NCBI GenBank assembly: GCA_018660505.1
Contig: JABJKE010000028.1
Location: 45,067 to 109,066 of the forward strand
Reading direction: 5' to 3'
From: Rhodobiaceae bacterium
GTDB taxonomy: Bacteria; Pseudomonadota; Alphaproteobacteria; RS24
Length of the DNA: 64,000 nucleotides
The notes under the pieces are model-generated. The model ran no database searches, was not told the origin of the DNA, and saw nothing but the letters and a program-made list of their open reading frames with translations. Of the stretch, positions 7,479 to 24,589 are shown one piece after another. Positions within the stretch are counted from its first letter, which is position 1, and every line of letters begins with the position of its first letter. The translations under genes were made by a program, and so were the position numbers.

Positions 7479-7565
7479 GCCCTTGTGGTGGAATTGGTAG
7501 ACGCGACGGATTCAAAATCCGTTTCCTTAACGGGAGTGGCGGTTCGAGTCCGCCCAAGGGCACCA
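7479..7565 (+). tRNA. tRNA-Leu(CAA)
   Basis: GCCCTTG acceptor pairs with CAAGGGC; anticodon loop TTCAAAA in stem ACGGA/TCCGT; GGTTCGAGTCC T-arm; CCA encoded. Confidence 0.95.
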
Positions 7566-7733
7566 GCTGACTTTTTCTAAAATTTGCGATTTTATTTTCG
7601 ATTGACGAATGTCTGCAAAGCAATCGACACACCGTCGTTTGCTTATGGTCTTCATCTTATGCTTGAGTAACTTTGTATCCATTGGGGGTTCAAAAAAAAC
7701 AATAATTTTCACTCAAGCAGGAGACAGAGATAG

Positions 7734-8501
7734 ATGATTGAGACCTTTCCAAAGGAGGTGGCCAAGCAGCTTGGCTACTATGTTTACAAACTTATCGACC
7801 CAAGAGACGGAGCTGTGTTTTATGTTGGCAAAGGCAAGGGGGATAGAGTTTTCGCCCAATGTAAAAATGCGATCGAGCAATCTGCTATCGAGGCGGAAGA
7901 AGACGAAGAAGATGAGGTGTCGTTAAAATTAGGGACCATACGCGAGATACTGAGAGAAGACCTTTTTCCTCTGCATATTATCGCAAGACATGGAATGACC
8001 GAGGATGAGGCTTTCTTGGTCGAAGCTGCGCTGATTGATAACACGCCTGGTCTGACCAATATAGCGGGTGGACATGGCTCCTCCGAGCGCGGTCCAGCTT
8101 CTGCCCAACAGCTTAACCAACGCTATTGTGCGGAACAGATTGTTCTGGAGCCGGGAATGAAGGTGATGGCTATCAATGTGCGAAAGTCGGAGGATGAACG
8201 GGATTATTATGATGCGGTTCGATTTGCTTGGCGCGTTTCGAAAACAAGAGCGGAGAGGGCAGAGCTTGTTTTTGCCGTGTCGGATGGCATTTGCAGGGGT
8301 GTTTTCATTCCCGAGGAATGGTTGGAAGCAACGCCTAAAAATTTCCCTAATCTGACGGAAAAGAGACTTAAAGGTAGGCATGGGTTTGTCGGCAAGGAAG
8401 CTCCCGATGAGATTGTGAAAAAATATAGGATGAAGCGCATGCCTGATGAATTTAAACGGCGCAAGGGCATGGCGTCTCCTATCCTCTATTTCTATGAGTA
8501 A
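7734..8501 (+). CDS. LEM-3-like GIY-YIG endonuclease domain protein with uncharacterised C-terminal domain
   Basis: YYVYKLIDPRDGAVFYVGKGKGDRVF (GIY-YIG core), EDEAFLVEAALID, GLTNIAGGHG; C-terminal LVFAVSDGICRGVFIPEEWLEAT...KYRMKRMPDEFKRRKGMASPILYF. Confidence 0.75.
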   Translation: MIETFPKEVAKQLGYYVYKLIDPRDGAVFYVGKGKGDRVFAQCKNAIEQSAIEAEEDEEDEVSLKLGTIREILREDLFPLHIIARHGMTEDEAFLVEAALIDNTPGLTNIAGGHGSSERGPASAQQLNQRYCAEQIVLEPGMKVMAINVRKSEDERDYYDAVRFAWRVSKTRAERAELVFAVSDGICRGVFIPEEWLEATPKNFPNLTEKRLKGRHGFVGKEAPDEIVKKYRMKRMPDEFKRRKGMASPILYFYE

Positions 8502-8595
8502 GCAGAGAGGCGAATAACCCTGTTTTTGTTCACATTCCATGACTGGCCATCGAGCCCTCATATGTGTATATTGCCGAAAAGGAAACAGGAGCTTG

Positions 8596-21696: not shown

Positions 21697-24589
21697 TGCC
21701 ACCCGATTGCAAAGATTTTAACACGGCGAAAGGTGAATTTGGGTCGGCCTGTTTTTCGGCGCGGCGCGGCTTATGGCTGGCGCGCGCCTTAGGGGCGGCG
21801 GCAGGTGATTTGCGTTTGGCATTGTTTTTACGCCCGCCCTCAGCGCCCGTTTTGCTTTGCGGGTTGTGTTTTGCCCGAGCGGGTCGCCACAGGGTTACAA
21901 GTTTTGCGGCCTCTGGTTCGCTTGCTTTGGCACTTTCTTCTGCTTCTTCCGATGCGGTTTCTGCTGGGGCGACAGTTTCTGGAGCCGCACCTTCTGGAGC
22001 TGCTCCTTCTGGAGAGACATCTTCTGAAGAGATTGAGGCAGGTTTTTCTTCCCCCGCTTCAGCGGCCTCTGGCGCGATGGGCGCGGCTTCTGCCTCTAGC
22101 GATTGATAGCCGAGCGCGGTCAAAATTTCCGCCAAATCTTCGGCGCCACAGCCCATGATAGACATCATGGCTTCATTGGCTTCAAAGCCTTTGGTTTTTT
22201 GCGCTTTGCTTTGTTCCAGCGCAGGGCGGATGAGGTCGGCCAATCGCTCGAGCATATCGAGGCGAATGGCGCGGTTCTTGGTGGTGTAAAACCCAGCTGC
22301 GCGATACAGATGGAACGGCAATTTTTCGCGCGCGCAAGAGGTCAGCCCGGCGGCGGGAAGCAAGGCCAAGTCTTTGGCAATATCTCGCGGTGGTGTTTCC
22401 GATGCCTCTGGCGGCGTTGCGGCCTCACTGGATTGGCGCTCTAAAAGGCTCATCAAGGCCAAGAGGCGGGCCGGTGCGGGTTTTAGCAAAGCGGGCACAA
22501 ACACCGTGTAAAAGCCGAAGCGCACGCCTAATTTTCGCAAGCTGGCGCGCAAGGGCTGGTCTAATTTGGCCAAAATATCGGCCACATCGCGGCGCGGCAA
22601 ACTGCCTTTATGTTCCAGCAGTTGAAACGCGAGCCCGCGGGCTAGACCATCTAAGTCTTTCGCGGTTTCGAGTTTTTTCAAAGGCTCTAGGTCTTGCGCT
22701 ATTTTGGCGCGCACCCAATCGGTGAGGCGGGTCTCGGCGCGTTGGCGCGCCTCGCCCGTCAGCGCTTCATCGGCCAATAATTGCGCCGATGGGGTGAGAT
22801 AAGCCAGTTTATCGCTATCGCGCCCGAGATTAATTTGCAAGTGCCCGACGCATGCCGTCTGCCAAATAATCTCGCCGGTTTGCGTCAATGAAAACGCCGT
22901 GTCTTCGGCTTGGCCAATTTCTTGGGCGCGCGCGCGCAGCGCATCGCCCACGGCTTTTTCCACCGCGGCGCGTGCCGTGCCCGCTGGCACGCCTTTGAGG
23001 CGCGGGTCGCGCTCGACGTGCAGGCCGTTGAGCCGACCCATATATTCTTCGGCCACTAGAATGTCGCCATTGTCTTCAATATTCGCCACGATAACCTCTC
23101 GTCCGGCAAGCCGCCGCATTAGGGCAGATGTTTTGCGATCCACAAATTGCCCCATTAACTTATTATGCAGCGCATCCGATAGACGGTCTTCTACACTACG
23201 GCTGACCCCCTGCCAATGGGCAGGGTCGGCCAACCAATCATTGCGCTGAGCAATATAAGTCCAAGTGCGAATATGCGCCAGCCGCATCGATAGGGTTCCC
23301 AAGTCGCCATCCAAGCGGTCGCAACGCTCAATGCGCTCGCCCATCCAGCTTTCCGGAATAAGCCCATCGTCGCCACTTAAAAATCCAAACACTTCGCCGA
23401 TGAGCGCGCTATGTTCGCCGACCGTGGTTTTTCGAAAATCGGGGGTTTGCGCCACTTGCCACAAAAGCTCTAAAGCCGGATTGGCGCCAGAGCTATGCAA
23501 GCTGCCATCGCCCAATAAATCGAGCGTATCGGGGTCGCGGCTTAATAGTTTCATCGCTTGTTGGTCGTCGGCCGCGGGCGCGCGCATGAGGCCGGCCCGT
23601 GGCGCGGTTTTTTCTAGGCTTAACAAAAGCGCTTCGAGGCTCGAGAAATCGAGATTGGGATTGCGCCAGAACAGGCTTTTGACCGGCTCAAATTCATGGG
23701 TTTCGATTTGCTCAATTAAAGCCTCGTCAAAGGCTTCCATATCGCCGGTCACGCCAAAGCTTCCGTCTTGCGTATGGCGACCGGCGCGGCCCGCGATTTG
23801 AGCCAATTCGGCGGCGCTTAATTGGCGATGGCGACGGCCATCAAATTTGCGTCTCTGGGCAAAGGCCACATGGTCGACATCCATATTGAGCCCCATGCCA
23901 ATGGCATCTGTGGCGACCAGAAAATCGACCTCGCCCGATTGATACATTTCTACTTGCGCGTTTCTTGTGCGCGGGCTTAAGCCGCCCATCACCACGGCGG
24001 CGCCGCCGCGTTGTTGGCGAATAACCTCGGCGATTGCATATACATTATCGGCCGAAAAAGCCGCTACTGCGCTGCGTCTGGGCAGGCGCGATAATTTATG
24101 GCTGCCGCCCCAGCTAAGGCGCGAAAAGCGGCCGCGGCTTTCTATTTCGACTTTGCCGAGCAATTGGCGCAAAATCGGCGCCATGGTTTCGGCGCCCAAT
24201 AAAATCGTCTCGGCGGTGCCGCGCGCATGCAAAATGCGGTCGGTGAACACGTGGCCGCGCTCGGGGTCCGCCGCCAATTGGCATTCGTCGATGGCGATAA
24301 ATTCAACCTCGCGGCTAATCGGCATGGCTTCTGTGGTGCAAATGAAATAGCGCGCTTTGGGCGGAAGAATTTTCTCTTCGCCCGTGATTAAGGCCAAATC
24401 GGCTTTATGGACGTGGCCGAAGTCGCCGCGCAGGCAGCGGTCATAGACTTCGCGCGCCAAAAGCCGCAGCGGCAAGCCAATCATGCCGCTGCCATGGGCC
24501 AAGAGGCGTTCCATCGCAAGGTGGGTTTTACCAGTGTTGGTGGGCCCTAAAACAATACGCAAGTGGGGCTGAAAAGACAGGTTCGACAT
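21689..24589 (-). CDS. SUV3-like DEAD/DEAH helicase with Ala/Glu-rich C-terminus
   Basis: VLGPTNTGKTHLAMERLLAHGSGMIGLPLRLLAREVYDR, AIDECQLAADPERGHVFTDR, ATDAIGMGLNMDVDHVAFAQRRKFDG, QIAGRAGR; start MSNLSFQPHLR at 24589. Confidence 0.88.
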   Translation of the reverse strand: MSNLSFQPHLRIVLGPTNTGKTHLAMERLLAHGSGMIGLPLRLLAREVYDRCLRGDFGHVHKADLALITGEEKILPPKARYFICTTEAMPISREVEFIAIDECQLAADPERGHVFTDRILHARGTAETILLGAETMAPILRQLLGKVEIESRGRFSRLSWGGSHKLSRLPRRSAVAAFSADNVYAIAEVIRQQRGGAAVVMGGLSPRTRNAQVEMYQSGEVDFLVATDAIGMGLNMDVDHVAFAQRRKFDGRRHRQLSAAELAQIAGRAGRHTQDGSFGVTGDMEAFDEALIEQIETHEFEPVKSLFWRNPNLDFSSLEALLLSLEKTAPRAGLMRAPAADDQQAMKLLSRDPDTLDLLGDGSLHSSGANPALELLWQVAQTPDFRKTTVGEHSALIGEVFGFLSGDDGLIPESWMGERIERCDRLDGDLGTLSMRLAHIRTWTYIAQRNDWLADPAHWQGVSRSVEDRLSDALHNKLMGQFVDRKTSALMRRLAGREVIVANIEDNGDILVAEEYMGRLNGLHVERDPRLKGVPAGTARAAVEKAVGDALRARAQEIGQAEDTAFSLTQTGEIIWQTACVGHLQINLGRDSDKLAYLTPSAQLLADEALTGEARQRAETRLTDWVRAKIAQDLEPLKKLETAKDLDGLARGLAFQLLEHKGSLPRRDVADILAKLDQPLRASLRKLGVRFGFYTVFVPALLKPAPARLLALMSLLERQSSEAATPPEASETPPRDIAKDLALLPAAGLTSCAREKLPFHLYRAAGFYTTKNRAIRLDMLERLADLIRPALEQSKAQKTKGFEANEAMMSIMGCGAEDLAEILTALGYQSLEAEAAPIAPEAAEAGEEKPASISSEDVSPEGAAPEGAAPETVAPAETASEEAEESAKASEPEAAKLVTLWRPARAKHNPQSKTGAEGGRKNNAKRKSPAAAPKARASHKPRRAEKQADPNSPFAVLKSLQSGGNE

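Follow-up and report, generated by a model that had tools for sequence, protein, structure and literature searches.

A CMoRE (PD-T4-3) family gene inserted beside tRNA-Leu in a Rhodobiaceae bacterium, and possible relatives of its sensor domain

A short open reading frame lying downstream of a tRNA-Leu(CAA) gene in a Rhodobiaceae bacterium couples a GIY-YIG nuclease core to a second, C-terminal part, and the locus raises the question of what such a protein does and how its gene came to lie there. The window, that is, the whole 64,000-nucleotide stretch of DNA that was analyzed, had been read previously from its letters, and the original prediction was an inserted LEM-3-like nuclease that might be modification-dependent or defensive and might carry a PUA/EVE-like reader. 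The reading frame is open from an ATG start, with AGGAG 10 bases upstream; 168 bp separate it from the upstream tRNA, and it is flanked by a CLC chloride-channel gene and a coq4-like gene (Table 1).

Table 1. Positions of the features at the locus, numbered from the first letter of the window
Feature	Position	Strand	Basis
tRNA-Leu (CAA), left edge of the insertion site	7479..7565	+	ARAGORN; present in seven relatives, with no insert 3' of it
Inserted segment of ~960 bp, one gene	7578..8539	.	blastn and MAFFT of empty sites
AGGAG, likely ribosome-binding site	7719..7723	+	sequence read
CMoRE/PD-T4-3 family modification-dependent restriction endonuclease, 255 aa	7734..8501	+	PADLOC, PDB, PHROG and Foldseek matches
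GIY-YIG nuclease domain	7734..8075	+	Pfam LEM-3_GIY-YIG; mapping onto O157:H7 CMoRE Y17/Y19/Y31 and active-site Arg and Glu
Acidic lid loop, residues 53-61, expected to be autoinhibitory	7890..7916	+	position equivalent to the CMoRE acidic loop
C-terminal modification-sensing domain, residues 128-255	8115..8498	+	CMoRE sensor domain match; model

Family membership and functional residues

The predicted LEM-3-like core is real, and Pfam covers this core only (LEM-3_GIY-YIG, residues 27-145, E = 2.4e-13, score 50.8 bits, cut-off 27); a search of NCBIfam with the protein gave no match. Full-length matches were obtained elsewhere. The PADLOC model PD-T4-3 (PDLC04031) matches residues 2-254 (E = 1.5e-83), PHROG 5356 matches over the full length (E = 4.9e-71), and a sequence search of the PDB found entries 9U75 (E = 2.4e-62) and 9U7U (E = 4e-60), which are crystal structures of CMoRE, the new name of PD-T4-3 (PMC12923530). 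The window protein is ~45% identical to the crystallized O157:H7 and APEC O1 enzymes. The fold is conserved as well: an AlphaFold2 model built from an alignment of 54 homologues (pLDDT 82.8) was placed by Foldseek, over its full length, on 9U75 and 9U7U with E values of ~3e-26 to 6e-26 (2.7e-26 for 9U75). The sequence and structure matches describe a single protein with an N-terminal GIY-YIG domain, a C-terminal sensor domain and no extra domain.

CMoRE is a single-component type IV modification-dependent restriction enzyme that guards E. coli against T2, T4 and T6; it cleaves DNA containing 5hmC or 5ghmC, not C or 5mC, and cuts between two modified cytosines at CN11/N9G (PMC12923530). The enzyme forms tetramers and is restrained by an acidic loop, and the biochemistry and plaque assays cover homologues from three strains (PMC12923530). 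PD-T4-3 was active in its native host, as judged by a deletion test (PMC12409345).

Every functional residue tested is kept in the window protein, among them those that the published mutants showed to be required. The alignment places Y17, Y19 and Y31 of the O157:H7 enzyme at Y16, Y18 and Y30, reproducing the GIYxY-YIG motif with its third tyrosine, and the active-site arginine and glutamate at R38 and E97. R80 corresponds to R85 and Y127 to Y131, and V92 and L96 of the oligomer interface correspond to V96 and L100; the O157:H7 numbering is correct, because the published residue labels agree with the alignment. Across the 54 homologues, drawn from many phyla, Y16, Y18, Y30, R38 and E97 are invariant, as are W166, G185, W196, R215, F218 and Y231 in the C-terminal part, the conservation of which had been suspected by eye. 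The loop EAEEDEEDE, in which eight of the nine residues are acidic, aligns with the negatively charged inserted loop of CMoRE, and residues 53-59 within it form the lowest-confidence stretch of the AlphaFold2 model. In CMoRE the main-chain oxygen of Y127 contacts 5hmC (PMC12923530), so the specificity of a homologue is not readable from its sequence.

By analogy with these enzymes, the C-terminal domain would bind modified cytosine, most likely 5-hydroxymethyl- or glucosyl-hydroxymethyl-cytosine, in invading phage DNA; a dimer would read two modified sites ~21 bp apart, and the N-terminal GIY-YIG domain would make a double-strand break between them. The acidic loop, presumably lying over the active site, would protect unmodified host DNA from cleavage, so that a partner methylase would be unneeded. 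We infer the substrate, cleavage pattern, tetramer and autoinhibition of the window copy from the E. coli homologues, the tested members of which act on T-even coliphages. With a probability of roughly 0.93, in our estimate, the gene belongs to the CMoRE (PD-T4-3) family, was acquired horizontally and encodes an enzyme that would cut modified-cytosine phage DNA. The idea that this is a defence nuclease dependent on modification, with its reader at the C-terminus, was thus right, being supported by the experiments on 45%-identical homologues (PMC12923530) and by the retention of their functional residues; the accompanying description of the family as poorly characterized in bacteria was wrong, since its function was already known and it has been named, assayed and crystallized (PMC12923530).

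Single-gene insertion and alternative readings

The predicted insertion beside tRNA-Leu is borne out by empty sites in seven relatives (G010, G001, G004, G002, G005, G016 and G019), namely those with both flanks on one contig, in which CLC, tRNA-Leu(CAA) and coq4 are adjacent. The DNA of G010 is 85% identical to the window up to position 7577 and again from 8540, and 44 bp of unrelated sequence replaces the 962 bp in between. The gap between the CLC and coq4 coding regions measures ~250-310 bp in the seven relatives and ~1225 bp in the window. No flanking direct repeats and no att-like duplication of the tRNA 3' end were found at the insert edges, and integrase-type insertion is therefore not claimed.

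Base composition sets the gene apart within the 64-kb window, in keeping with the A/T-richness first noted by eye: its GC content (0.480; mean 0.556, sd 0.026) and GC3 (0.488; mean 0.616, sd 0.034) are the lowest among the 37 window genes of at least 200 aa, and its codon usage is more deviant than that of 39 of 43 equal-length chunks. Homologues were found in three of the 28 genomes of the order, the window's own included. This sporadic occurrence is not that of a core gene at a shared locus, the finding that would have spoken against the original prediction. One of the other two copies (G024) is ~45% identical to the window copy and lies at a different genome position; the other, from the window's genus (G009), consists of the sensor half alone (L003:1492-1878), between genes named folD and argG from their translations. 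A tree groups the window copy first with one from Chromatiales (52-53% identical) and then with Nitrospira; when 61 copies are ranked by distance from it, the one from the same family comes 51st. We conclude that the gene arrived by horizontal transfer, as an insertion of one gene.

Plasmids, one prophage-like plasmid record and 382 viral-contig stretches carry homologues too. Full homologues are present in jumbo phages (Moabite and relatives, OBP, N1M2 and Totoro, including L006:4995-5759 and L007:4977-5738), where the annotation is homing nuclease or hypothetical protein; such copies may serve as weapons against competing phages whose DNA is modified. A second subfamily with GIY-YIG and sensor parts (L071-L074, L235, L238, L239 and L241) has a C-domain signature like YEATRG.W, is common on phage-plasmids and enterobacterial plasmids, and has diverged from the characterized CMoRE. 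At L247:1498-2189 (G668) there is a broken copy, in which one gene (L247/L250) is spread over two overlapping frames.

The alternative that survives best is a variant of the CMoRE explanation and not its opposite: the enzyme would be CMoRE-like, but its reader would now recognize some other DNA modification of the host's phages, such as a different sugar on cytosine or a modified form of adenine. The reader domain is just 33-50% identical to its homologues, the host lies outside the enterobacteria, and CMoRE itself has been described as plastic across cytosine modifications, with weaker activity on arabinosylated bases and with recognition of modified adenine cited from another report (PMC12923530). 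However, the active-site residues, W166, W196, R215, F218 and Y131 are all kept and there is no sign of a rebuilt reader, and we consider such a shift rather unlikely.

GIY-YIG domains are common among homing enzymes, and a selfish nuclease of this type inserted beside the tRNA would fit both the single-gene insertion and the annotation of the OBP and N1M2 homologues as homing nucleases. We reject this role as very improbable: in the solved homologues the C-terminal domain is a modified-base reader and not a site-specific DNA-binding domain (PMC12923530), the copies in L002, L003, L004 and L010 lie at unrelated loci in different hosts with no common cleavage site, and the insert edges carry no target-site repeat. 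Finally, a role in DNA repair or in cutting branched DNA, like that of metazoan LEM-3/ANKLE1, as the name of the best Pfam model would suggest, is rejected as scarcely credible, since that match spans the nuclease core only, the whole-length matches are all to CMoRE, a sporadic distribution misfits a housekeeping repair enzyme, and no ankyrin repeats or LEM domain were matched in the protein by Pfam at E values up to 1.

Fold and possible recurrence of the sensor domain

The sensor domain of CMoRE was reported to have no sequence or structure homologues, and its fold was called distinct (PMC12923530). When the C-terminal domain of the window protein was modelled alone (pLDDT 90, pTM 0.84) and compared with the PDB by Foldseek, four CMoRE chains came out on top (TMq 0.81-0.86, E = 3e-13 to 1e-12), a match to a solved reader domain where the original prediction had named the lack of a reader-like fold as evidence against itself. 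Beyond these chains, 45 of the 46 further matches listed are EVE, ASCH-like or YTH proteins of the PUA superfamily; all of the non-CMoRE matches are sub-threshold (best E = 0.054, TM <0.5), and many of the YTH entries are redundant. They include the EVE-HNH enzyme VcaM4I (PDB 6YEX; probability 0.66, E = 0.054), MJECL36, which we take to be an EVE protein (E = 0.074, probability 0.77), TTHA0113 and 1WK2, both presumably ASCH-like, and many YTH domains, two of them vaguely titled entries that we assume to be YTHDC1. The search with the full-length model also lists YTH and ASCH proteins, and ASCH and DUF3850 proteins are among the weak matches in a viral structure library.

Comparison of profiles gave a different result. 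An hhalign alignment of the C-domain profile with 30 EVE proteins was negative (probability 2.3%, E = 0.021), and no Pfam match to EVE, ASCH, YTH or SRA was found in the domain. A PADLOC match to PDC-M06A (E = 0.025-0.029), seen in one member of ten, was judged to be chance. Because PUA-superfamily proteins dominate the sub-threshold structural matches, the suggestion of a PUA/EVE-like reader is plausible as regards fold, whereas the EVE profiles lent it no support. On the strength of the models, the domain probably has a PUA-like fold, and the published statement that the sensor fold has no homologues may deserve re-examination.

Pfam holds no model of this domain. We used a sensor HMM built from 13 sequences of GIY-YIG proteins only, with none of the candidates included, and with E values calculated for 100,000 sequences. 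Two candidates are stand-alone sensor genes of 129 aa. One (L070, G308; HMM E = 2e-31) lies 97 bp after a TIR_2 gene, itself a match just above its cut-off, the two genes together occupying L070:571-1869; the other (L236, Synechocystis pSYSA; HMM E = 4e-16) follows a full GmrSD gene (GmrSD_N, E = 2e-39; GmrSD_C, E = 4e-30) after 47 bp, and this pair (L236:3169-5336, positions 22328-24495 of pSYSA) is a possible two-gene type IV restriction system. On an Arcobacter plasmid (CP134847, L257:4965-5708) the sensor is fused to HNH (sensor HMM E = 6e-18, HNH E = 8e-8), a parallel to EVE-HNH restriction enzymes, and this protein alone matches the sensor part of 9U75 too (E = 0.0046). A 629-aa protein of a Pimelobacter plasmid (NZ_CP097985, L258:4641-6530; HMM E = 1e-24) has two sensors in tandem, followed by a PD-(D/E)XK-like region whose match falls below its cut-off. 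A structural match to the sensor model was also obtained with a phage PD-(D/E)XK protein (E = 3.4e-8, TMq 0.69).

Among 14,705 ORFs of 294 sequences, the sensor matches with E <1 were GIY-YIG proteins, the cases named above or remnants, and as all of them are accounted for, the false-positive rate is low. R163, W166, W196, R215, F218, G220 and A223 are common to the aligned architectures; the stand-alone proteins show no obvious counterpart of the tyrosine that contacts 5hmC. Each partner (TIR, GmrSD, HNH, PD-(D/E)XK) was seen in one lineage only, and neither stand-alone sensors nor sensor-HNH proteins were found in viral contigs. Several matches were not counted as architectures: the sensor-only proteins of L003 (128 aa) and L243 (116 aa), which may be broken CMoRE remnants, the L247/L250 gene in overlapping frames, and a weak match inside an unrelated-looking ORF (L249, G067). 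The evidence is about evenly balanced on whether the CMoRE C-terminal domain is a modular reader of modified DNA that recurs with HNH, PD-(D/E)XK, GmrSD and TIR, acting in trans in two-gene systems with the last two.

Significance and comparison with known systems

The gene extends an experimentally proven phage-defence family to a small-genome lineage, as a cleanly delimited acquisition, and its product would be a diverged 5hmC-type cutter, a candidate for the detection uses proposed for CMoRE. The family is already characterized; the part that a specialist might not know, and the part that is new here, is the candidate recurrence of a sensor domain published as having no homologues, stand-alone or fused with other effectors. 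Should the sensor prove to be a shared module, the claim that it lacks relatives would have to be revised, and several unannotated genes beside GmrSD, TIR or HNH would become testable modified-DNA sensors; type IV restriction would also gain a new arrangement if GmrSD or TIR were served by a reader acting in trans.

With CMoRE/PD-T4-3 (PMC12923530; 9U75, 9U7U, 9U7Z and 9U8D) the window protein shares the single-component, type I two-domain layout, the catalytic and interface residues, the acidic loop and the fold; it is only ~45% identical, and differs in a longer acidic loop (8 acidic residues, compared with 4 consecutive in CMoRE), in a shorter loop before R215, and in its setting, a single gene inserted into the chromosome of a bacterium with a small genome. 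The PHROG 5356 proteins, of unknown function, belong to the same family by their full-length match, but are phage-borne. LEM-3_GIY-YIG proteins (PF22945) share the nuclease core, above the curated cut-off, whereas the window protein has a modified-base reader in place of ankyrin or LEM parts. Like EVE-HNH and other PUA-superfamily enzymes such as VcaM4I, the window protein would combine a modified-base reader and a nuclease in one chain, with no methylase; unlike VcaM4I, its nuclease is GIY-YIG and not HNH, its reader is C-terminal, and it has no significant sequence similarity to EVE.
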